In this document: positions 49,148 to 64,000 of the stretch, piece after piece
Numbering within the stretch: the first letter of the stretch is position 1
How the letters are laid out: each line of letters starts with the position of its first letter
Origin: Chryseobacterium indoltheticum
Lineage (GTDB): Bacteria; Bacteroidota; Bacteroidia; Flavobacteriales; Weeksellaceae
NCBI RefSeq assembly: GCF_003815915.1
Contig: NZ_CP033929.1
Span: 2,170,001 to 2,234,000, forward strand
Reading direction: 5' to 3'
Length of the DNA stretch: 64,000 bases
The notes under the pieces: generated by a model
The model's database searches: none
Told to the model about the DNA's origin: nothing
The model's input: the letters and a program-made list of their open reading frames with translations, nothing else
Program-made: the position numbers and the translations under genes

Positions 49148-49227
49148 TGTATAGATTCTTGTTTTAATATATTTCAAAAATACATTTTTTTTAGAGGAAA
49201 AGTGATAAATAGTGCTGTTATTCAAAT

Positions 49228-49301
49228 AAAAATGCCCCGCAGATAGGCGAGGCGCTAAATGTTTTCACAACGGAATAATCCTTATTGTGAATTGCTTTCG
49301 G
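49228..49301 (-). ncRNA. tracrRNA of the type II-C CRISPR system
   Basis: The minus-strand transcript begins near 49301 with the anti-repeat GAAAGCAATTCACAA (49285-49299). This is a 15-base perfect complement to GTTGTGAATTGCTTTC at the start of the crRNA-sense repeat. It continues with AATAAGGATTATTCCGTTGT, then GAAAACATTTAG, and ends in a GCCTCGC/GCGGGGC hairpin (49234-49253) followed by TTTTT. The AATAAGG nexus-like segment and terminal hairpin are the type II-C tracrRNA plan. It is divergent from cas9. Its direction fixes the array transcription to the minus strand. Confidence 0.88.
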
Positions 49302-49304
49302 ATA

Positions 49305-49312
49305 CAAATCTA
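49305..49312 (-). promoter_or_regulatory. Promoter -7 box of the tracrRNA
   Basis: TAGATTTG on the minus strand matches TAnnTTTG exactly. Transcription would start at about 49299-49302, right at the anti-repeat. A CTG lies 17 bases upstream as a weak -33 element. Confidence 0.65.
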
Positions 49313-53697: not shown

Positions 53698-54591
53698 ATG
53701 ATAACCCGTTCCATCTACATCGGCAATCCCACCTATCTGAAACTCAAAGACAATCAGATGAAAATCCTTTGTCCGGAAACTAAAATCGAAAAGGGGAGTG
53801 TGCCGGTGGAAGATTTGGGATTATTGATGTTAGACCATTTCCAGATTACGATTTCCCATCAACTGATTCAGAAAATGATGGGAAATAATGTTGTAGTAGT
53901 AAGTTGCGATTCCCATCATTTGCCACACGGAATTATGCTTCCATTGTATGGACATTCAGAACATTCGGATAGGGTAAAAGACCAATTAGAAGCGAGTGAA
54001 CCGCTCAAAAAGCAACTCTGGAAACAAACTATCGAATGTAAAATTGAGAACCAAAAAGAAGTTCTCCGGCGATTAGGAAACTATTACGAACCGATGATTG
54101 AGTATCAAAACAATGTTAAAAGCGGTGATATTACCAATATGGAAGGCATCGCCGCACAACATTACTGGAAATATCTCATCAGTTTGGATTTCCTGAGACA
54201 GCGTTTTGGAGATTCACCCAATCAGTTTTTCAATTTCGGGTATGCCGTTCTAAGAAGTATTGTCGCAAGAGCAATAGTTGAAACAGGATTGCTTCCGGTT
54301 CTCGGAATTTTCCATAAAAATAAATACAATCCTTATTGTCTTGCTGATGATTTGATGGAGCCTTACCGCCCATTTGTAGATTTGCTAGTCATGCAATGGC
54401 TTGAAATACATCCCGAAACCGAAGAATTAACCAAAGAGTTCAAAGCCCATATCCTCCAAATTGCCACAAAAGATGTTCGGATAGATGATAAAACAAGACC
54501 TTTATTAATTTCTGTAAAAACAACTGCAACCTCGCTTTATAAATGCTACACCGGCGAAAAAAGAATGATTTCCTATCCAGAATTACAGTAA
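53698..54591 (+). CDS. cas1: CRISPR-associated integrase Cas1
   Basis: A 297-residue Cas1 that, with Cas2, inserts new spacers. The N-terminal beta domain (TRSIYIGNPTYLKLKDNQMKI, HHLPHGIMLPLYGHSEHSDRV) is followed by the catalytic helical domain. Glu is in NMEGIAAQHYWKYL (about residue 150), His in GIFHKNKYNPYCLADDLMEPYRP (about 202), and the acidic residue in the same segment. It begins five bases after the cas9 stop, so it is in the same transcript. The type II cas9-cas1-cas2 order without csn2 or cas4 identifies subtype II-C. Confidence 0.96.
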   Translation: MITRSIYIGNPTYLKLKDNQMKILCPETKIEKGSVPVEDLGLLMLDHFQITISHQLIQKMMGNNVVVVSCDSHHLPHGIMLPLYGHSEHSDRVKDQLEASEPLKKQLWKQTIECKIENQKEVLRRLGNYYEPMIEYQNNVKSGDITNMEGIAAQHYWKYLISLDFLRQRFGDSPNQFFNFGYAVLRSIVARAIVETGLLPVLGIFHKNKYNPYCLADDLMEPYRPFVDLLVMQWLEIHPETEELTKEFKAHILQIATKDVRIDDKTRPLLISVKTTATSLYKCYTGEKRMISYPELQ

Positions 54592-54600
54592 TTTTTTTAT

Positions 54601-54706
54601 GGGCAGCTTTTCCGCCTTCCGCTCCCAATCTTTTTTGCAGACAATTTCACATTAAATAGTACTTGAGAGCATGCAAAAAAGGATTTCCGCTCAAGTCGGG
54701 CTGCAA
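54601..54706. repeat. Dispersed imperfect palindrome, family A, copy 2 (between cas1 and cas2)
   Basis: It begins GGGCAGCTTTTCCGCCTTCC and ends CTCAAGTCGGGCTGC, with arms ATCTTTTTTGCA and TGCAAAAAAGGAT. The same head, poly-T arm and tail occur at 10078-10164. It occupies most of the 145-base gap between cas1 and cas2 and does not disrupt either gene. Confidence 0.7.
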
Positions 54707-54733
54707 CCATTATACCGCAAAACAAAACCATGA

Positions 54734-55075
<342 letters not shown>

Positions 55076-55086
55076 ATTTCAAATCC

Positions 55087-55122
55087 TAAAAAACAACAAA
55101 ACCCACTGAATAACAATGGGTT
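55087..55122 (-). terminator. Terminator of the antisense CRISPR transcript
   Basis: On the minus strand AACCCATTG pairs with CAGTGGGTT around TTATT and is followed by TTGTTGTTTTTT. It lies just beyond the array on the side where minus-strand crRNA transcription exits. The T tract is much stronger on the minus strand than on the plus strand. Confidence 0.65.
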
Positions 55123-55132
55123 AAATTTTGAG

Positions 55133-56950
55133 GTTGTGTTATATCTCAAAGATACTCAAAAATGAAAGCAATTCACAACTCAATAGATTATTTTCCTGAG
55201 CCATCTTTTGTTGTGTTATATCTCAAAGATACTCAAAAATGAAAGCAATTCACAACTCGCACTACACTGGGAAGACTTATTTTGAAGTTGTGTTATATCT
55301 CAAAGATACTCAAAAATGAAAGCAATTCACAACAAATAACCGCAGATGGTTTGGAATCTCCAAGTTGTGTTATATCTCAAAGATACTCAAAAATGAAAGC
55401 AATTCACAACGACAGTTCACAGTTTAACTAAAATAACAGGGTTGTGTTATATCTCAAAGATACTCAAAAATGAAAGCAATTCACAACTGCCTATGAGTAC
55501 TTACCTTTCGGAATTAGGTTGTGTTATATCTCAAAGATACTCAAAAATGAAAGCAATTCACAACAGCCATGGATAATAAAAAAGAGATCAGTTTGTTGTG
55601 TTATATCTCAAAGATACTCAAAAATGAAAGCAATTCACAACAGTGGGAGAGTATGGAGATATAAGTCACAGGTTGTGTTATATCTCAAAGATACTCAAAA
55701 ATGAAAGCAATTCACAACGAAAGTATTGGACGTATTAAGTTACTTAAAGTTGTGTTATATCTCAAAGATACTCAAAAATGAAAGCAATTCACAACAGGAT
55801 CCATACGGTATATAAGGCGACGTTAGTTGTGTTATATCTCAAAGATACTCAAAAATGAAAGCAATTCACAACGACTTTCTGTCTACATATCCATCGACCC
55901 CAGTTGTGTTATATCTCAAAGATACTCAAAAATGAAAGCAATTCACAACTATATTGCCTTCAGATGCAGTTCCTCTTGCGTTGTGTTATATCTCAAAGAT
56001 ACTCAAAAATGAAAGCAATTCACAACGTTCGCCAGCATTCCCGACATGCCGTCGTAGTTGTGTTATATCTCAAAGATACTCAAAAATGAAAGCAATTCAC
56101 AACAAACATCTTAAATACAGAAATTCCATAAATGTTGTGTTATATCTCAAAGATACTCAAAAATGAAAGCAATTCACAACCCAATTACCCACTTGATAGT
56201 TTCAACCTTTGTTGTGTTATATCTCAAAGATACTCAAAAATGAAAGCAATTCACAACATTGCTTCTGTTGTTTGAATTATTCAAAAAGTTGTGTTATATC
56301 TCAAAGATACTCAAAAATGAAAGCAATTCACAACGGGTGAAGGTTTTGTAATTATCTACGGCGGGTTGTGTTATATCTCAAAGATACTCAAAAATGAAAG
56401 CAATTCACAACAAGCGCTTGCTTTACAAAGATTGTCAGAAGGTTGTGTTATATCTCAAAGATACTCAAAAATGAAAGCAATTCACAACTAACCCTCCTGG
56501 GGCTTCATAATCTTTACGGTTGTGTTATATCTCAAAGATACTCAAAAATGAAAGCAATTCACAACTATGAAACTATAATTACAAACAATAAGATAGTTGT
56601 GTTATATCTCAAAGATACTCAAAAATGAAAGCAATTCACAACGAAATATGGGTGCTTGTCGTTGAAGATAATGTTGTGTTATATCTCAAAGATACTCAAA
56701 AATGAAAGCAATTCACAACAAAGTAGCGCCTCTAGGCATATTTTCAATAGTTGTGTTATATCTCAAAGATACTCAAAAATGAAAGCAATTCACAACAAGT
56801 CAGCTGGAATGTCGGTGTTTAAAATTGTTGTGTTATATCTCAAAGATACTCAAAAATGAAAGCAATTCACAACCGTAAAATATTACTTTGCCTGCTACTC
56901 TTAGTTGTGTTATATCTCAAAGATACTCAAAAATGAAAGCAACGAAATAG
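55133..56950 (-). CRISPR. Type II-C CRISPR array, 24 repeats of 47 bp and 23 spacers of 30 bp
   Basis: Repeats start at 55133 and every 77 bases to 56904. In the crRNA sense (minus strand) the repeat begins GTTGTGAATTGCTTTC, the form pairing with tracrRNA, and ends ATATAACACAAC. All 23 spacers are exactly 30 bp and look different from one another. The last repeat on the right (56904-56950) keeps 39 bases and then diverges, losing the portion that would pair with tracrRNA. Each repeat contains TATCTTTG (TAnnTTTG) with a TTG 21 bases upstream, so each may be a promoter. The degenerate end is far from cas2, implying new spacers enter at the cas2 side. Confidence 0.98.
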
Positions 56951-56986
56951 TATCACATCCCAAAGAATATTCATAAAAGATATTCC

Positions 56987-56994
56987 TATTTTTG
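56987..56994 (+). promoter_or_regulatory. Promoter -7 box of the DUF1294 gene
   Basis: TATTTTTG matches TAnnTTTG exactly and ends three bases before the ATG at 56998. The transcript would be leaderless or nearly so. Confidence 0.5.
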
Positions 56995-56997
56995 CGA

Positions 56998-57273
56998 ATG
57001 ATTTACTTTCTTGTGGTGTCAAATATTTTGACTTTTATAGTTTTCGGAGCAGATAAATGGTATGCCAAAAAAAGCAAAAGAAGAGTTTCAGAACTATTTC
57101 TTCTGAGTTTGACTTTTTTAGGAGGTACTTTGGGAGCATTGTTAGCGATGATGATTTTTAGACATAAAACATCAAAAAAATCTTTTATTCTTAAACTTCT
57201 TATCGTAATTTTTGTTCAGCTAATTATATTTGGAATAATGAAGAATTCTAAAATAAATTTTAACATTTTTTAA
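56998..57273 (+). CDS. DUF1294-family small membrane protein
   Basis: A 91-residue inner-membrane protein with three hydrophobic spans. The family motif FGADKWYAKKSKRRVSE is followed by LFLLSLTFLGGTLGALLAMMIFRHKTSKKSF. ATG 56998 is preferred over a TTG six bases upstream. DUF1294 proteins have no known function. The gene lies 47 bases from the degenerate end of the CRISPR array and reads away from it, but is a widespread housekeeping-type gene with no known link to CRISPR. Confidence 0.88.
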   Translation: MIYFLVVSNILTFIVFGADKWYAKKSKRRVSELFLLSLTFLGGTLGALLAMMIFRHKTSKKSFILKLLIVIFVQLIIFGIMKNSKINFNIF

Positions 57274-57340
57274 TACCACAATAATCGGAGTAGGCATCAT
57301 ATTTTCTTACATATCTATCATAACACCAAAAAATATTATT

Positions 57341-57889
57341 ATGTCAAAGAAAATTGCAATTCTAGCAACAAACGGATTTGAGGAAAGTGAATTGAAATCT
57401 CCAAAAGAACATTTGGAACAACAGGGTTGGACGGCTCATATTATTAGTCCAAAATCTGGTACCATAAAAGCATGGGCAGAAAAAGATTGGGGAAAAGAAT
57501 ACAATGTTGATAAAACAATTAGTGAATCGAGCGCATCAGATTATGATGCTTTGGTTCTGCCTGGAGGTGTAATCAATCCCGATCAATTGAGAACTAATGA
57601 TGAAGCGCTTAATTTTGTAAAGGACTTTTTTACTCAGCATAAACCGGTTGCAGCAATTTGCCATGGCCCACAGATCCTTATTAATGCTGAAGCAGTACAA
57701 GGCAGAAAATTGACATCCGTAAATTCTATCAGTAAAGATTTGAAAAACGCTGGTGCCGTTTGGGAAGACAGTGAAGTAGTGGTAGATAACGGTTTGGTGA
57801 CAAGCCGTACTCCGGAAGATTTGCCGGCATTTAATGCTAAATTGGTTGAAGAAATCAATGAAGGTAAACACGAAGATCAGAATTTATAA
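57341..57889 (+). CDS. DJ-1/PfpI-family protein (type 1 glutamine amidotransferase-like)
   Basis: A 182-residue cytoplasmic protein. The nucleophile elbow is AAICHGPQILI, with Cys in the expected place; the upstream Glu of the family is in NGFEESELKSP, and YDALVLPGGVINPDQLRT forms the neighbouring strand. PfpI/YhbO-type members act as glyoxalases, deglycases or stress proteins. There is no signal peptide. It stands alone between DUF1294 and typA with its own terminator. Confidence 0.9.
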   Translation: MSKKIAILATNGFEESELKSPKEHLEQQGWTAHIISPKSGTIKAWAEKDWGKEYNVDKTISESSASDYDALVLPGGVINPDQLRTNDEALNFVKDFFTQHKPVAAICHGPQILINAEAVQGRKLTSVNSISKDLKNAGAVWEDSEVVVDNGLVTSRTPEDLPAFNAKLVEEINEGKHEDQNL

Positions 57890-57910
57890 GACGTTTTATT
57901 TAGGAGTAAG

Positions 57911-57945
57911 GAAGACTTGAATATTGCATTCAGGTCTTCTTTTTA
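57911..57945 (+). terminator. Terminator of the PfpI-like gene
   Basis: GAAGACTTGAAT pairs with ATTCAGGTCTTC and is followed by TTTTT. Confidence 0.8.
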
Positions 57946-58173
57946 TATAATATTGATTTTCATAAAGATTAAAGCTTATATTTTAATTTTTATCATTATT
58001 CGTACCTAACACAGGATTAGAATTTTTTAATCTCAACCATTGAAAATGCACTATTTATAACGTGTTTTTCATCATCGCTCATCAATCTTCTCATTATGAA
58101 TTTGTTAATAAATGAATATTGATAGTGGTTAATTAATTAAAAATCACTAATTTCGCACCCGTAAAAATCATTC

Positions 58174-59979
58174 ATGCAAAACATTAGAAATATTGCGATT
58201 ATCGCACACGTTGACCACGGTAAGACTACTTTGGTTGATAAGATTATTCATGCTACAAACATTTTCAGAGAAAATCAGGAAAGTGGAGAATTAATAATGG
58301 ATAACAACGATCTTGAAAGAGAAAGAGGAATTACCATTTTATCAAAAAATATTTCTGTTACTTATAAAGACGTTAAAATCAACGTTATCGATACTCCTGG
58401 TCACGCCGATTTTGGTGGTGAGGTAGAGAGAGTTTTAAAAATGGCAGATGGTGTTATCTTATTGGTAGATGCATTCGAAGGACCTATGCCTCAGACTAGA
58501 TTCGTTTTGCAGAAAGCATTAGAATTAGGTCTTAGACCATTAGTGGTTATCAATAAAGTCGACAAACCAAACTGTCGTCCTGAAGAGGTTCACGATCAGG
58601 TATTTGATTTGTTCTTCAACCTTGAAGCTACAGAAGAGCAGTTGGATTTCCCAACGTTCTACGGTTCTTCAAAACAAGGATGGTTCAATACTTCATTAGA
58701 GCAAACTGACAATATTTTCCCATTATTAGATGGTATTTTACAATACGTTCCTGAGCCTAAAATTGAGGAAGGTAACTTACAAATGCAAATCGTTTCTCTA
58801 GATTTCTCTTCTTTCTTAGGAAGAATTGCAATCGGAAAAGTGATCAGAGGAGAAATTAAAGAATCTCAATGGATCGGTCTGGCGCAAGCGGACGGAAAAG
58901 TTTTAAAAGGAAAAGTAAAAGAATTATACGTTTTTGAAGGTCTTGGAAAGAAAAAAGTAACTGAAGTAAAAGCTGGAGATATCTGTGCTGTAGTAGGTTT
59001 TGATGCTTTTCAGATTGGAGATTCTTTCGTAGATCTTGAAAATCCTGAGCCATTGCCAAGAACTGCAATTGATGAGCCTACGTTGAACATGACGTTCTCG
59101 ATCAACAATTCACCTTTCTTCGGTAAAGACGGTAAATTTGTAACTTCAAATCACCTGAAAGAAAGATTAACTAAAGAATTAGAGAAAAACCTTGCATTAA
59201 GAGTTCAGCAGACTGATGATGCAAACACTTTCTTAGTATTCGGTAGAGGTATTCTTCACTTGTCAGTTTTAATTGAAACAATGAGAAGAGAAGGATATGA
59301 AATGACTATCGGTCAGCCACAGGTTATCTTGAGAGAAATCGACGGAGAAAAATGTGAGCCTTACGAATCTTTGGTTGTTGACGTTCCTGAAGAATATGCT
59401 TCAAGAGTAATCGACTTGGCTACTCAGAGAAAAGGTGACCTTCACATTATGGAAACTAAAGGTGAAATGCAGCACATGGAATTCGAAATTCCTTCAAGAG
59501 GTTTGATCGGATTGCGTTCTCAGATGTTGACAGCTACTGCAGGTGAAGCTATTATGGCACACCGTTTCACAGAATACAAGCCTTTCAAAGGTGCGATTCC
59601 TGGAAGAAGTAACGGTGTATTGATTTCTAAAACTCAAGGTCCGGCTACAGAATATTCTATTGCTAAATTACAGGATAGAGGTAAGTTCTATGTTGATCCG
59701 GGCGAGGAGATCTATGCAGGTATGGTTATCGGTGAGCAAAACAAGCCGGGTGACTTAGTGGTAAACATCGTTGAAGCAAAACAATTGAATAACATGCGTG
59801 CTTCTGGAAAAGATAAAGATACAGGAGTTGCTCCAAAAATCTTATTCTCTCTTGAAGAATGTATGGAATATATCCAGGCTGATGAAGCAATCGAGGTAAC
59901 TCCAAACTTCATCCGTATGAGAAAGAAAATCCTTTCTGAAGAAGAAAGAAAAAGAATGGAAAGAGGAGCGAAAGCATAA
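58174..59979 (+). CDS. typA: Ribosome-binding translational GTPase TypA/BipA
   Basis: A 601-residue GTPase. The G motifs are IAHVDHGKTTLVDKI (G1), ERERGITILSKN (G2), DTPGHADFGGEVERVL (G3) and NKVDKPNCRPE (G4). EF-G-like domains follow, and the BipA-specific C-terminus is recognisable (RGLIGLRSQMLTATAGEAIM, NIVEAKQLNNMRASGKDKDTG, NFIRMRKKILSEEERKR). It assists large-subunit assembly and growth under stress. The length is that of full-length TypA. A TAATTTCG box, one base off consensus, lies about 35 bases upstream. Confidence 0.97.
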   Translation: MQNIRNIAIIAHVDHGKTTLVDKIIHATNIFRENQESGELIMDNNDLERERGITILSKNISVTYKDVKINVIDTPGHADFGGEVERVLKMADGVILLVDAFEGPMPQTRFVLQKALELGLRPLVVINKVDKPNCRPEEVHDQVFDLFFNLEATEEQLDFPTFYGSSKQGWFNTSLEQTDNIFPLLDGILQYVPEPKIEEGNLQMQIVSLDFSSFLGRIAIGKVIRGEIKESQWIGLAQADGKVLKGKVKELYVFEGLGKKKVTEVKAGDICAVVGFDAFQIGDSFVDLENPEPLPRTAIDEPTLNMTFSINNSPFFGKDGKFVTSNHLKERLTKELEKNLALRVQQTDDANTFLVFGRGILHLSVLIETMRREGYEMTIGQPQVILREIDGEKCEPYESLVVDVPEEYASRVIDLATQRKGDLHIMETKGEMQHMEFEIPSRGLIGLRSQMLTATAGEAIMAHRFTEYKPFKGAIPGRSNGVLISKTQGPATEYSIAKLQDRGKFYVDPGEEIYAGMVIGEQNKPGDLVVNIVEAKQLNNMRASGKDKDTGVAPKILFSLEECMEYIQADEAIEVTPNFIRMRKKILSEEERKRMERGAKA

Positions 59980-60001
59980 TCCTACATTCTCAGATATATT
60001 T

Positions 60002-60028
60002 AAAGCCTCGATTTTCGGGGCTTTTTTT
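60002..60028 (+). terminator. Terminator of typA (copy 1 of a duplicated terminator)
   Basis: AAAGCCTCGA pairs with TCGGGGCTTT around a TTT loop and is followed by a T run. Twenty-six bases are identical to the terminator at 60564-60589. Confidence 0.9.
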
Positions 60029-60069
60029 GTTTTATTTTACTAATTTAGCAATACTAAAATATTAATAGT

Positions 60070-60255
60070 ATGACAATTACTAAAGAAAAATTACATCAAC
60101 AGATCGATAAATTTCCGGATGAAATAAGCATAGATGAGGTAATTGAAAGACTAATCATGATAGAAAAGCTGGAAACTAGAATACAAGAATCAGATGAAAA
60201 TGATACCATTTCAGAAGAAGATCTCAAAAAGGAAATGGGACAATGGTTCGAATAA
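60070..60255 (+). CDS. Small antitoxin-like protein of a RelE/ParE module
   Basis: A 61-residue acidic, helical protein, MTITKEKLHQQIDKFPDEIS followed by IDEVIERLIMIEKLETRIQE. The size and placement, with the toxin reading frame starting 13 bases before its stop (ATG 60243), are those of an antitoxin in a RelE/ParE-type operon. This Bacteroidota type has a C-terminal tail that would bind the toxin. The gene is intact although the toxin is broken. Confidence 0.7.
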   Translation: MTITKEKLHQQIDKFPDEISIDEVIERLIMIEKLETRIQESDENDTISEEDLKKEMGQWFE

Positions 60256-60535
60256 AATGGCTAAGATCAGCTAAAATAGATTTAAAAGAAATCTATGATT
60301 TTATAAGCCTAGATTCTAAAAAGATATGCGAGGTTCCAAATTGAAAAAATTCAAAATAAAACAGAAATTTTAAAAACCGGAATGATTATCGGAAAACGAG
60401 TTTCGGAAATAGACGATAATAATGTAAGAGAGATTTTTGAAGGAAATTACAGAATAATTTATCATATCTCAAAATGAAATTCATATTCTTTTAATTCATC
60501 ACGGTGCAAAAGATATATTGCATAGAATAAAATAA
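60243..60535 (+). pseudogene. RelE/ParE-family toxin, disrupted by two frameshifts
   Basis: The frame starts MVRIKWLRSAKIDLKEIYDF, continues to ISLDSKK, and then stops early after CEVPN. Removing one base near 60330 restores YARFQIEKIQNKTEILKTGM and then IIGKRVSEIDDNNVREIFEG, NYRIIYHIS. A second shift at about 60475 (CAAAATGAAATT) is needed to read the usual end, NEIHILLIHHGAKDILHRIK. The pattern (RSAKIDLKEIYDFI, REIFEGNYRIIYHI, HHGA) is the ParE/RelE fold. The toxin is therefore probably inactive, unless both shifts are sequencing errors near A runs. The start overlaps the antitoxin gene by 13 bases. Confidence 0.8.
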
Positions 60536-60563
60536 TGCATTAAACTATTCTTTTAATAATCTA

Positions 60564-60589
60564 AAAGCCTCGATTTTCGGGGCTTTTTT
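60564..60589 (+). terminator. Terminator after the toxin remnant (copy 2 of the duplicated terminator)
   Basis: It is identical over 26 bases to the typA terminator at 60002. The toxin-antitoxin remnant lies exactly between the two copies. Confidence 0.9.
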
Positions 60590-60641
60590 CGTTTTAACTA
60601 AATTTTACAGTAACATATTTCTCAAATTATCTTTATATCAT

Positions 60642-60649
60642 TAGTTTTG
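60642..60649 (+). promoter_or_regulatory. Promoter -7 box of the family-10-like hydrolase
   Basis: TAGTTTTG matches TAnnTTTG exactly, 39 bases before the ATG at 60689. Confidence 0.45.
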
Positions 60650-60688
60650 TGTTTTGAATAACTCAGAAATCCTTTTTTGGAATCATAT

Positions 60689-62281
60689 ATGAAAATCTCT
60701 AAAATAAAATTAGTCTGCATATTGGGTATATTTGCTTCTTTCAGTACTTCGTGCGCTGTAAGAGAAAATACTCCGAAAGTAAAAAATAAAGTTTCAAATA
60801 ATAATACTAGAACTCCAAATCCCAAATTAGTTCCGCCAATCGCAGCGATTCCTGTAAATGAAGAATTTAGAGTGAATCTTCCAGCGATCAAAAGAGAATT
60901 TCGTGGCGTTTGGATTGCGAGTGTTGCCAATATCAACTGGCCATCAAGAAATAATCTCTCTGTAGATCAGCAAAAAGCGGAAGCGATCAGTATGTTGAAT
61001 ATGCTTCAGGAAAATAATTTTAATGCAGTGATTTTTCAGGCACGTCCTTCTGCAGATGCTTTGTATACAAGCGAATTGGAACCTTGGTCTTATTTTCTGA
61101 CCGGAAAAACGGGCGAACCCCCATATCCAAATTACGATCCGTTGCAGTTTTGGATTGAAGAAGCTCATAAAAGAGGGATGGAGCTGCATGTTTGGCTGAA
61201 TCCTTACAGAGCGCATCATTCTAATGGGGGAGCGGTTTCTAACCAATCAATGGTCAATAAACTTTCGGATATTACCATTAAATTGAAAAACGGAATGTAT
61301 TGGTTTGATCCCGCCAATCCGAAAACTCAGGGACATGTTTCGAATGTTGTAAAAGATTTGGTGAAAAGATATGATTTGGATGCGATACATTTTGATGACT
61401 ATTTTTATCCATATGCAACCTACAACAGAGGTGTAGATTTTCCGGATCACGAAAGCTGGAGAATCTATCAAAGTTCAGGTGGAACACTTTCGAGACCAGA
61501 TTGGAGAAGAGATCAGGTCAATAAATTTGTAGAAAGAATTTATAAAGAAATCCACGCTGAAAAAAATTATGTAAAATTCGGAATCAGCCCGTTTGGAATC
61601 TGGAAACCGGGTTATCCGGAAGGAGTTGTAGGTTCTTCGCAATATGACGAGTTATTTGCTGATGCTAAATTATGGTTAAATAAAGGCTGGGTAGATTATT
61701 TCTCTCCACAGCTGTATTGGCCGATAGATTCAAAAGGACAAGCGTTTGCTTCTCTGTTAAATTGGTGGAAATCTGAAAATACAATGAACCGCCATCTTTG
61801 GCCGGGCTTAAATACAGTTGAAGTGAAAGTTTCCGACAGACCGGGTGAAATTAAAAATCAGGTGGAATTGTCAAGGCAGATTTTAAAGGATGATGCAGGA
61901 GAAATACATTGGAGTATTGCGGGTTTAACGAAAAGTTCAAATATGCTTCCAACCTTAAAAAACGGACCTTATAAAGACAAAGCTCTGACTCCGAAAAGCC
62001 CGTGGATAAAAATGGCTCCTTTAGAAAAACCAACGCTATTCATCAATGATAACGGAAGTTCTGTACAAACAAGCTGGAGCACAAAAAATATAGGTAATGT
62101 TTTTCACTGGGTACTTTTTACGCAATATAACGGAGTTTGGGAATCAGAAATACTTACTTTAGATAACCTTTCAAAAGAAATTCCTAAGTTTAAAGATGGT
62201 AAAAGTTTAAATGCAATTGCAATAAAAGCGATTGATCGTTTAGGAAATGAAAGCGATTATATGGCGAAGAAAGTGAAGTAA
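60689..62281 (+). CDS. Lipoprotein glycosyl hydrolase, family-10-like (GHL10/DUF187-type)
   Basis: A 530-residue lipoprotein; the signal peptide ends in FSTSC, with Cys as the lipidated residue. The TIM-barrel domain starts at KREFRGVWIASVANINWPSR and includes NNFNAVIFQARPSADALYTS, GMELHVWLNPYRAHHS, DLDAIHFDDYFYPY and WVDYFSPQLYWPID. This is the pattern of the GHL10 proteins (YddW-like), which are suspected peptidoglycan or polysaccharide hydrolases. The C-terminal 100 residues look like an Ig/FN3-type domain (PTLFINDNGSSVQTSWS). ATG 60689 is preferred over an upstream TTG at 60677. Confidence 0.9.
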   Translation: MKISKIKLVCILGIFASFSTSCAVRENTPKVKNKVSNNNTRTPNPKLVPPIAAIPVNEEFRVNLPAIKREFRGVWIASVANINWPSRNNLSVDQQKAEAISMLNMLQENNFNAVIFQARPSADALYTSELEPWSYFLTGKTGEPPYPNYDPLQFWIEEAHKRGMELHVWLNPYRAHHSNGGAVSNQSMVNKLSDITIKLKNGMYWFDPANPKTQGHVSNVVKDLVKRYDLDAIHFDDYFYPYATYNRGVDFPDHESWRIYQSSGGTLSRPDWRRDQVNKFVERIYKEIHAEKNYVKFGISPFGIWKPGYPEGVVGSSQYDELFADAKLWLNKGWVDYFSPQLYWPIDSKGQAFASLLNWWKSENTMNRHLWPGLNTVEVKVSDRPGEIKNQVELSRQILKDDAGEIHWSIAGLTKSSNMLPTLKNGPYKDKALTPKSPWIKMAPLEKPTLFINDNGSSVQTSWSTKNIGNVFHWVLFTQYNGVWESEILTLDNLSKEIPKFKDGKSLNAIAIKAIDRLGNESDYMAKKVK

Positions 62282-62307
62282 TATTCTTTTGTACTTAAAA
62301 ATAAAAT

Positions 62308-62341
62308 AGAGGCTAACAAAATCGTTAGCCTCTGTTCTTTT
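62308..62341. terminator. Bidirectional terminator
   Basis: AGAGGCTAAC and GTTAGCCTCT form a perfect 10-bp stem with a 6-base loop between convergent genes, followed by a T-rich tract. Confidence 0.85.
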
Positions 62342-62344
62342 AGA

Positions 62345-62905
62345 TTAAAATACCTGCACATAAGTGAATTTCTGTGAGCCTGAGGTGATAGTAAACCATT
62401 CTCCTTCTACAAGATATCTATTTTGATAGGTTTCTGAAGGACCATTACATGAATTATAGGCAGGATCTCCCAATTCGAGTTCGGCTCCGTAGACGAAGTT
62501 TGCATCTCTGGTAACCATTAAACAGTCCGTCCAGTCTGTGTCGGTTGTAAAAATACTGGTATCATAAAATACAGGATGACCGGCAACTCTCCATATTGAA
62601 GGGTTCGTTGCAGAGCTTTGTACGAGCCATTGGTTAATTAATGGATTAGAAGAGGGCCCCTGATTGTATCTTGGATATTTAGCAACAAAAGGAGAGCCTC
62701 CACTTGCAGGCGGAAAAGTGATGTTAAAACTACTGTAATCATTGCTTGAAATTCTGGGATAACAGCTTCCGTTAAGGCCATTTGCCTCTATTCTTGCTTC
62801 CAGAAAATATGGCGAATAATTATAAATCATTAATATTGACTGCTGCGCATTGGCAGATATTCCAAATAACAGCAATGCGAATAATGTTAAGATGTTTTTT
62901 TTCAT
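62345..62905 (-). CDS. Exported protein of unknown function
   Basis: A 186-residue protein with a signal peptide ending ISANAQ. The mature part is rich in Ser, Asn, Tyr and Trp (SILMIYNYSPYFLEARIEAN, GSCYPRISSNDYSSFNITFP) and has three Cys. I recognise no family. It follows the small lipoprotein gene on the same strand by 37 bases, so the two probably share a transcript. Confidence 0.7.
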   Translation of the reverse strand: MKKNILTLFALLLFGISANAQQSILMIYNYSPYFLEARIEANGLNGSCYPRISSNDYSSFNITFPPASGGSPFVAKYPRYNQGPSSNPLINQWLVQSSATNPSIWRVAGHPVFYDTSIFTTDTDWTDCLMVTRDANFVYGAELELGDPAYNSCNGPSETYQNRYLVEGEWFTITSGSQKFTYVQVF

Positions 62906-62942
62906 AATCTATTTATTATTAGTTTTTTAAAGGATAAAAAAG

Positions 62943-63323
62943 TTAGTTCTCAGACTGCACTTTGTTTTTGATCTCGCTGTTTTTACTGTTGTTGATCTGG
63001 ATCGCCCATACAATAATTGCGCTCATGTCGCCTTTTGTTTTTCGCTCTATTTCCTGATCTGTAGCGCCTGTAGACTTTATTAATTCTAACGATGCTGGAA
63101 TAAGTGTTTTCTTTCGTCGGTCACTTAGTTCAGTACTTCCGCTTCTCCTTTCCTCGTCAGTGAGTTTGTTTTCAGGATTATTTAAATTTTTAAATGCTTT
63201 TGCGAAAGCTTCCATTTCTGGTGATTTAAGAGTTTCCGGATTCGTTACTACAGCATTTTCAGAAGAGCATGAACCAAAGATTGTCAGTGCTACCAATAGC
63301 AGACATGAGATTGAGTTTTTCAT
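62943..63323 (-). CDS. Small lipoprotein of unknown function
   Basis: A 126-residue protein. The signal peptide ends in TIFGSC, followed by SSEN, so Cys 19 is the predicted lipid anchor. The rest is charged and probably helical (PEMEAFAKAFKNLNNPENKL, SDRRKKTLIPASLELIKS). No family is recognised. Confidence 0.75.
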   Translation of the reverse strand: MKNSISCLLLVALTIFGSCSSENAVVTNPETLKSPEMEAFAKAFKNLNNPENKLTDEERRSGSTELSDRRKKTLIPASLELIKSTGATDQEIERKTKGDMSAIIVWAIQINNSKNSEIKNKVQSEN

Positions 63324-63917
63324 TTTCGTATGAGTTATTTAATTTTTAGCCAAACTAGTCATAGAAAACCTGATGCGCAAACAGTTGCTGTAATGATTTA
63401 TGAATTAGTACTTTATAAAATAGGTCTCGATTACCGTCTTTACGGTATTTTTCTAAATGTTTTACCTGAAAATATTTTATGCATTGCATTCAATATGAAT
63501 GATTATGATTAACGATTTCACTCTATTATGATAATTTTAGTTATTAAGTCAAATTTGTGTTTTTGTTGTGTTTAAAAATAATTGATTATTAATAAGTTAT
63601 ATGTTTTTATTTGGTGTAGATTTATAAATAATTCCCATTAAATTTAAATATTAATTTTAGATAATATAATGCCTTTGTTTTTATTTTTAACTTGCTAAAG
63701 TTTTTAAATCATTAATTTTTGAAATAAAATTAGCCTTGCCAGCTATATAATCGCAAAATAGGCTGGATAATTAAAATTATGTCATTGAATTGTGAATATT
63801 TAAATTTTAAAGTATTTATTCATTTTTGAGGGATATAATTTTCAGTTTGTACAAATTAAATCGATAATCAAATTATAATATAACGACAGATTTTTAACAA
63901 CAAAAAACTTATTTACT
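63324..63917. other. AT-rich intergenic region
   Basis: Nearly 600 bases between divergent lipoprotein genes. I see no convincing reading frame, RNA gene or exact TAnnTTTG box for the downstream gene. Confidence 0.35.
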
Positions 63918-64000
63918 ATGAGAAAAATTCTTTTTACACTTAGCTTTTCAACTTTGCTGCTAAGTTCGTGTTCGAACGAAAGCGTGGCGGTGAACACAGT
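63918..64000 (+). CDS. Lipoprotein, 3' end outside window
   Basis: Only 27 codons are visible: MRKILFTLSFSTLLLSSCSN, a signal peptide with lipobox LLSSC. Nothing can be said about its function. Confidence 0.75.
   Translation, partial: MRKILFTLSFSTLLLSSCSNESVAVNT

Follow-up and report, generated by a model that had tools for sequence, protein, structure and literature searches.

Repeats of a type II-C CRISPR array in Chryseobacterium indoltheticum carry a putative promoter box of the Bacteroidota type

The question raised by this locus is where transcription of its CRISPR (clustered regularly interspaced short palindromic repeats) array starts: at one promoter outside the array, or separately within every repeat. 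The locus lies in a stretch of 64,000 nucleotides (nt) of the Chryseobacterium indoltheticum genome (contig NZ_CP033929.1, positions 2,170,001 to 2,234,000), here called the window. The array is of type II-C and lies downstream of cas9, cas1 and cas2 (Table 1). It has 23 identical 47-nt repeats, which start at 55133 to 56827 with a spacing of 77 nt; a 24th, at 56904, matches them over 39 nt (to 56942) and then diverges. Read on the minus strand, the repeat is GTTGTGAATTGCTTTCATTTTTGAGTATCTTTGAGATATAACACAAC. A preliminary description had proposed that promoters are built into the repeats, and our conclusion is that each repeat very probably carries its own Bacteroidota-type promoter, which would serve the next spacer.

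The direction of the array is given by the trans-activating CRISPR RNA (tracrRNA). A 15-nt copy of repeat positions 2-16 (in minus-strand reading) is found at 49285-49299, upstream of cas9. Minus-strand RNA from this site could base-pair with the 5' end of the repeat as read on that strand, and a terminator-like hairpin comes next. The site has the anti-repeat expected of a type II-C tracrRNA, one complementary to the 5' portion of the CRISPR RNA (crRNA) repeat. Pairing of tracrRNA in type II systems involves the part of the repeat that follows the spacer, and therefore the crRNA strand is the minus strand, opposite to the cas genes, as had been described.

On this strand all 24 repeats contain TATCTTTG at repeat positions 26-33 (from 55147-55154 to 56918-56925), an exact TAnnTTTG as first described, which is internal to the 47-nt repeat and ends 14 nt from its end. 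TAnnTTTG is the -7 consensus of Bacteroidota primary-sigma promoters (PMC7366714; here and below, papers cited in this way are drawn on for portions of their text), where it is described for genes and small RNAs, in an organism without a CRISPR array. The box in the repeats is thus of the host's sigma type, and it resembles the box before the tracrRNA. No sigma-70-like -10 box was found at the 3' end of the window's repeat. As far as sequence comparison goes, the box is real and conserved in the class of long repeats defined below, and its kind, place and strand are right for a promoter of each spacer.

The repeat would then work in two halves. On the crRNA strand its 5' half would be the handle that pairs with tracrRNA, serving the preceding spacer, while its 3' half would supply the -7 element for the Bacteroidota primary sigma factor, serving the following one. 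Because the box lies 14 nt inside the repeat end, the start should precede the spacer. The predicted start of RNA polymerase lies some 5-8 nt beyond the box, around repeat positions 38-41; we infer both the start within the repeat and its position. The earlier expectation of a start a few bases before the spacer is adjusted by this to some 6-9 nt before it. The primary transcript would consist of a repeat tail of about 6-9 nt, the spacer and the next handle. Transcripts would run towards cas2, and would end at the leader hairpin with its T-run or be cut in the repeat:tracrRNA duplex. The leader hairpin of the window has a predicted energy of -11.8 kcal/mol on the crRNA strand, and none was found in this leader on the cas strand. 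Among the relatives described below, a leader hairpin with a T-run on the crRNA strand is a feature of 34 of 53 long-repeat and 21 of 32 short-repeat loci, and of about 5% of shuffled long-class leaders.

Table 1. Features of the locus in the window, and related phage mini-arrays.
Feature	Position	Strand	Remarks
CRISPR array	55133..56950	minus (crRNA strand)	23 full 47-nt repeats and 1 truncated; 30-nt spacers
-7 box TATCTTTG, leader-proximal repeat	55147..55154	minus	recurs every 77 nt to 56918-56925, 24 in total
5' part of leader-proximal repeat (GTTGTGAATTGCTTTC..), putative tracrRNA-pairing handle	55160..55179	minus	positions 2-16 match anti-repeat 49285-49299
Outermost repeat, first to be transcribed	56904..56942	minus	flank replaces 5' end; box 56918-56925 and 3' end intact
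cas9, 1430 aa	49401..53693	plus	NCBIfam TIGR01865, 396.9 bits
cas1, type II, NMENI-like	53698..54591	plus	TIGR03639, 286.4 bits
cas2	54737..55075	plus	TIGR01573, 55.5 bits
tracrRNA, predicted extent, ends inferred	49226..49300	minus	anti-repeat 49285-49299; terminator-like hairpin at about 49234-49255 and T-run
tracrRNA -7 box TAGATTTG	49305..49312	minus	ends 5 nt before anti-repeat
Leader with terminator-like hairpin	55076..55132	minus	core 55100-55122; T-rich stretch below 55099 on minus strand
Phage mini-arrays, Riemerella phages	L283 960-1120; L281 1440-1770; L292 1490-1650		

Relatives were collected by searching for the II-C Cas1 family in two overlapping samples of 395 genomes each, one from the phylum and one from the class, which gave 59 and 81 genomes above the cut-off, respectively. 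Besides the window, 129 II-C loci were fetched, and an array was obtained in 100 of the 130; the 30 without an array mostly have a contig ending near cas1. Two loci were excluded (L146 and L193, whose repeats are not II-C). The long class has repeats of 41-47 nt (60 distinct) and the short class repeats of 36-37 nt (32 distinct). Among the 60 long arrays, 54 fit the anti-repeat better in the crRNA orientation than in the other; the two orientations are equal in one array, and the crRNA orientation is the poorer in five (L034, L064, L069, L131, L144). By its anti-repeat, the L144 array has the reverse of the usual orientation with respect to cas1, and it was turned round for the counts. It is worth adding that L196/L202 is probably a proteobacterial contaminant: its Cas1, in the contig of a Bacteroidia metagenome-assembled genome, is 100% identical (over the query) to that of Candidatus Desulfobacillus denitrificans, and its repeat ends TACAATC. 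L196 is still counted among the 32 short repeats in the box and model scans.

On the crRNA strand exact TAnnTTTG occurs in 25 of the 60 long repeats, where shuffling (2000 shuffles, first 17 nt preserved) gives a mean of 1.26 and a maximum of 6; on the other strand it is found in none of the 60. With 9.7 of 31 cluster votes, it leads the gapped patterns of this shape within the long class. The shorter TAnnTT is present at repeat positions 21-28 in 39 of the 60. Box positions 7-8, which do not take part in the anchoring, have a pairwise identity of 0.61, as against 0.31 in the tail, in 26 representatives (one per assigned family, each array otherwise being counted singly). Of 33 non-II-C repeats of the phylum, TAnnTTTG is found in none on one strand and in one on the other. 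In one genus with 36-nt repeats, three species (L059, L074, L081) have TAATTTTG, TAGATTTG and TAGTTTTG, the boxes differing only at the two free positions. A published 47-nt repeat of Prevotella intermedia (PMC5608340), read on the other strand, holds TATCTTTG. The conservation that had been proposed as a check on the promoter is therefore found, the box being kept across families.

The tracrRNA promoters of the same loci provide a yardstick, for which 45 nt upstream of the anti-repeat were taken from 49 long-class loci with an anti-repeat score of at least 13. Exact TAnnTTTG is present upstream of 25 of the 49, and in 23 of these 25 the distance from its end to the anti-repeat is 2-6 nt. Run on 48 of the upstream regions, expectation-maximisation with random starting points recovers TATnTTTG. 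The resulting model scores the long repeats at a mean of 6.28 bits, with 30 of 60 reaching at least 6 bits, compared with 0.80 +/- 0.37 bits and 3.05 of 60 in shuffles, and -0.51 bits and 0 of 60 on the other strand. Short repeats score 0.66 bits (3 of 32 at 6 or above) and non-II-C repeats -1.5 and -1.1 bits (1 of 33 on each strand). For the training set itself, the tracrRNA promoters, the median is 8.26 bits, with 37 of 48 at 6 or above.

Further evidence comes from the outermost repeats. New spacers are inserted at the cas2 side, as shown experimentally in Riemerella anatipestifer (PMC6008519), so that the far repeat is the oldest and the first on the crRNA strand. By one common rule, 49 of the 60 long arrays have a readable flank, and 30 of these have an outermost repeat shortened by 3 nt or more at its 5' end. 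The losses reach 19-22 nt, and in 25 of the 30 they do not extend into the box; in the remaining five the mismatched stretch passes the start of the box, and two of these (L050 and L153) keep the box. The box window, which in this count is the best-scoring 8 nt and not always TAnnTTTG, is unchanged in 24 of the 30, and in 9 of the 10 with an exact TAnnTTTG. A study of extra repeats in II-C arrays found them mutated mostly in the first 15 nt, and its authors suggest that the promoter must stay (PMC12080349). What is added here is that the retained part matches the TAnnTTTG half; that paper has no mention of Bacteroid- or Flavobacteri- and, in the portions drawn on, no test of TAnnTTTG.

The outermost repeats also bear on a second element of the preliminary description, a TTG 21 nt upstream of the box. 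It is present, at repeat positions 2-4, in 23 of the 24 repeats of the window, and the outermost has lost it. This TTG is part of the GTTG end of the repeat, which is found in repeats of other phyla as well, and hence it provides no separate evidence for a promoter. As a selected -33 element (TTTG/TTG in Bacteroidota promoters) it finds no support in the outermost repeats: it is kept or replaced in 7 of 25 outermost repeats, against 4.6 +/- 1.9 expected, which is not above chance (the 25 were picked by hand, without L052, whose box is damaged, and L056 and L050 among the seven are whole repeats).

Promoters encoded by II-C repeats are known from other phyla. In Neisseria meningitidis each repeat promotes the next spacer, and crRNAs can be made without RNase III. 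In Campylobacter jejuni, differential RNA-seq shows every repeat to hold a -10 box in its 3' part, and RNase III is used despite the repeat promoters (PMC3656092). The present array is like both in that the repeat would be the promoter for the next spacer, and in having only cas9, cas1 and cas2. The likeness drawn in the preliminary description thus stands, with a box suited to another sigma factor; the principle is not new, and what is new here is its Bacteroidota-type version.

For a wider comparison, the best 80 named loci of other phyla among the matches listed were taken from a scan with a Cas1 alignment (L202 being left out), giving 56 arrays with 43 distinct repeats. In this set TAnnTTTG is present on neither strand of any of the 43, and 39 have TAnn[AC]T on one strand, at most 2 nt from the end. 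The terminal rule was formulated after viewing these repeats; applied to either strand in Bacteroidota, it finds 1 of 60 long repeats (not that of the window) and 0 of 30 short ones. Promoter-like boxes are thus found in Bacteroidota and in other phyla, differing in kind and place: in the sampled sigma-70 phyla TAnn[AC]T ends repeats of mostly 36-37 nt, whereas here TAnnTTTG lies inside a repeat of 47 nt. We suggest, tentatively and with some doubt, that the II-C repeat may co-evolve with the primary sigma factor of the host phylum, having a terminal TAnn[AC]T in repeats of mostly 36-37 nt in sigma-70 phyla and an internal TAnnTTTG in the lengthened 46-47-nt repeats of Bacteroidota.

Within the phylum, a putative repeat promoter has been proposed from a TTG in the II-C arrays of Flavobacterium columnare and F. 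psychrophilum (PMC8092290, PMC10309648). These arrays resemble the present one in phylum, subtype and transcription towards the leader, the direction in F. columnare resting on eight reads. The claims differ from ours in that the TTG lies 33-35 nt before the spacer and that no in-repeat -7 box is named in the portions drawn on. Of the published studies, one saw no repeat promoter (see below), and others, on 36- or 46-nt repeats, pointed to TTG. TAnnTTTG inside Bacteroidota II-C repeats was not found named in the literature searched, which was seen in part and mostly outside subscription journals.

Several observations weigh against a promoter in every repeat. TAnnTTTG is frequent in the window (102 occurrences, against 93 +/- 10 in shuffles); the score of the repeat is reached by about 0.9% of random 47-mers from the window and by 1.0% of shuffled 3' parts, and 24 copies within one array are a single event. 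By these chance tests the box of a single repeat is weak, and the statistical weight therefore rests on conservation in other species. There, the repeats of the long class are related, so that the shuffle statistics overstate their independence. The exact box is absent from 35 of the 60 long repeats, and 21 of the 60 lack TAnnTT at positions 21-28, with variants such as GATCTTTG or TTTCTTTG. When long and short repeats are pooled, ATnnTTGA, which is the block shifted by one, comes out ahead (13.5 against 11.5 of 50). The box is not universal in the phylum: the statement in the preliminary description that other Bacteroidota II-C repeats share it holds for the 41-47-nt repeats, to the extent given above, but fails for most of 36-37 nt, where 4 of 32 distinct repeats carry TAnnTTTG, three of them from one genus. 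For the short arrays, moreover, the orientation agrees with the anti-repeat better in 15, worse in 20 and equally in 3 (n = 38); here the anti-repeat often matches much of the repeat, and orientation was taken from the position relative to cas.

Other difficulties concern the supporting evidence. When intergenic regions were used to build the promoter model, the signal was weak and mixed with further repeated sequence, and the tracrRNA promoters therefore took their place. TAnnTTTG upstream of open reading frames (ORFs) in the fetched loci was found 129 times sense and 125 antisense in a first count, and 72 and 55 times in a second; its intergenic density is 1.63 per kb in divergent gaps versus 0.54 in convergent ones. 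Leader hairpins are also present on the cas strand, in 21 of 53 long and 6 of 32 short loci. In shortened outermost repeats the box is changed in 6 of 30: by one letter in L034 and L069, by damage in L052, and also in L036, L042 and L132, whose outermost units have 22-29 mismatches and may not be repeats; L132 is the one case with an exact TAnnTTTG among the six. The tail behind the box is mostly retained as well, so retention does not single out the box, and decay from the outside in that has gone no further may explain it. In 26 of 49 long loci tracrRNA pairing ends at repeat positions 23-28, overlapping the start of the box, so its TA could be kept partly for pairing. Lastly, R. anatipestifer CRISPR1 resembles the present array in its 47-nt repeat, its TGAAAGCAATTCACAA anti-repeat and its leader palindrome (PMC5006608, PMC6008519), and its authors reported no promoter in the 47-nt repeats (PMC5006608). 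The predictor in that study was the BDGP neural network, described, in the portions drawn on, for putative leaders.

The short class itself yields some further observations. Repeats of 36 nt such as those of L049, L055 and L087 mostly lack TAnnTTTG, yet 17 of 30 end in [TG]AnnTT; those of this sample that end in GATATT are without TAnnTTTG. The idea that the first bases of spacers are selected to complete a box in short repeats was rejected, there being no bias among 1083 spacers.

Of the other explanations, the one that survives best is that the block is conserved for a DNA or RNA role outside transcription, namely that Cas1-Cas2 recognises it as part of the repeat, that Cas9 binds it, or that it forms the end of the tracrRNA duplex. 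It draws on the overlap with the pairing region just described, which the block adjoins, and on the established knowledge that repeats in general are shaped by the integrase. In the window, however, pairing is limited to repeat positions 2-16. Two groups of Cas9 that are about 26% identical (the window and its relative L061) use a near-identical repeat, and in other phyla the repeats have the terminal TAnn[AC]T and not this block. The motif is also shared by the tracrRNA promoters, and it is mostly retained in outermost repeats, which receive no new spacers. Taken together, these points make a role outside transcription unlikely.

It might also be supposed that a single promoter outside the array produces a long pre-crRNA, the box in the repeats being ancestral noise. 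This is the usual mode in most CRISPR types, and the box alone is common in the AT-rich window. Against this, a leader promoter beside cas2 and reading into the array would yield a strand unable to pair with tracrRNA. On the crRNA strand there is no exact TAnnTTTG from 56926 to 64000, about 7 kb upstream of the array, a count of exact boxes that leaves room for near-consensus ones. The conservation of the box across families also argues against noise, and we regard an outside promoter as very unlikely. The remaining idea, that TAnnTTTG is a by-product of a small palindrome (TATCT-TTG-AGATA), can practically be dismissed: the dyad is present in the window's repeat, but in only 2 of 98 arrays (the window and L061), and elsewhere the box is kept without the second arm.

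The promoter in each repeat, as preferred here, also fits sequences found in phages. A phage search with the array led to Riemerella phages. Over at least 80% of its length, a 151-nt stretch is matched by 12 records, 11 of them at 99% or more; with 11 of the 12 near-identical, these represent one or two events. CRP34, CRP19 and RAP44 have a half-repeat with TATCTTTG but without the 5' part, a 30-nt spacer, and a full repeat of 48 nt. After the full repeat comes a leader-like hairpin with T's, and then a gene annotated as DNA-damage-inducible protein D. The mini-array thus looks like a natural minimal unit, with putative promoter half, spacer, handle and terminator; viral mini-arrays as such are already known (PMC11656645). 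That of CRP19 has three spacers, two of them identical. The first mini-array spacer matches the tape-measure gene in a record of phage GDF21 at 27 of 30 positions, the 3' 18 being perfect; a second record named GDF21 holds the mini-array, and target and carrier may be the same phage. Three further Riemerella phages (L289 490-570, L290 490-560 and L291 500-570) have only the 3' half-repeat, with its box altered, fused to a leader-like terminator, as if empty or a relic. One record with the Riemerella phage mini-array at 100% identity (OQ791282.1) is named Shigella phage Henu10, and this host label may be wrong. For the array's own spacers, matches to phage records fell on repeat-like sequence, and three plasmid matches were weak (E 3e-3 to 0.1).

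The remainder of the locus has the gene content of type II-C, the operon consisting of cas9, cas1 and cas2 without csn2 or cas4. For the two ORFs that precede cas9 there was no match to an NCBIfam family, and the ORF list has no further plus-strand ORF of at least 80 amino acids (aa) between cas9 and the array. A segment of about 150 bp that separates cas1 from cas2 (54592-54736) is absent from the relatives L061 and L069. It holds a match to the Flavo-1 RNA (54605-54706, minus strand), which has 36 matches in this genome, 23 of them above the cut-off, and being so numerous looks like a dispersed, inserting element. Between the window and L061 Cas9 is 26% identical, though Cas1 is 94% and Cas2 96% identical and the repeats agree at 44 of 47 positions. 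By these identities the contrast is an exchange of Cas9 on a common scaffold; Cas9 replacement has been reported in F. psychrophilum (PMC10309648).

For those Cas9 systems of Bacteroidota whose repeats are 46-47 nt long, the proposal gives a concrete mechanism of crRNA production. It would explain why the repeat is lengthened and has two parts, and it fits the half that is mostly kept in the outermost repeat. It also suggests that repeat promoters must suit the sigma factor of the host. If the co-evolution suggested above is true, the promoter half of the repeat would limit the phyla that a II-C array can enter and in which it can still be read, and phages with mini-arrays would use a bare half-repeat as promoter. 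A need for such a fit to the sigma factor would bear on the transfer of II-C arrays from one phylum to another, and on the design of guide arrays for Bacteroidota.
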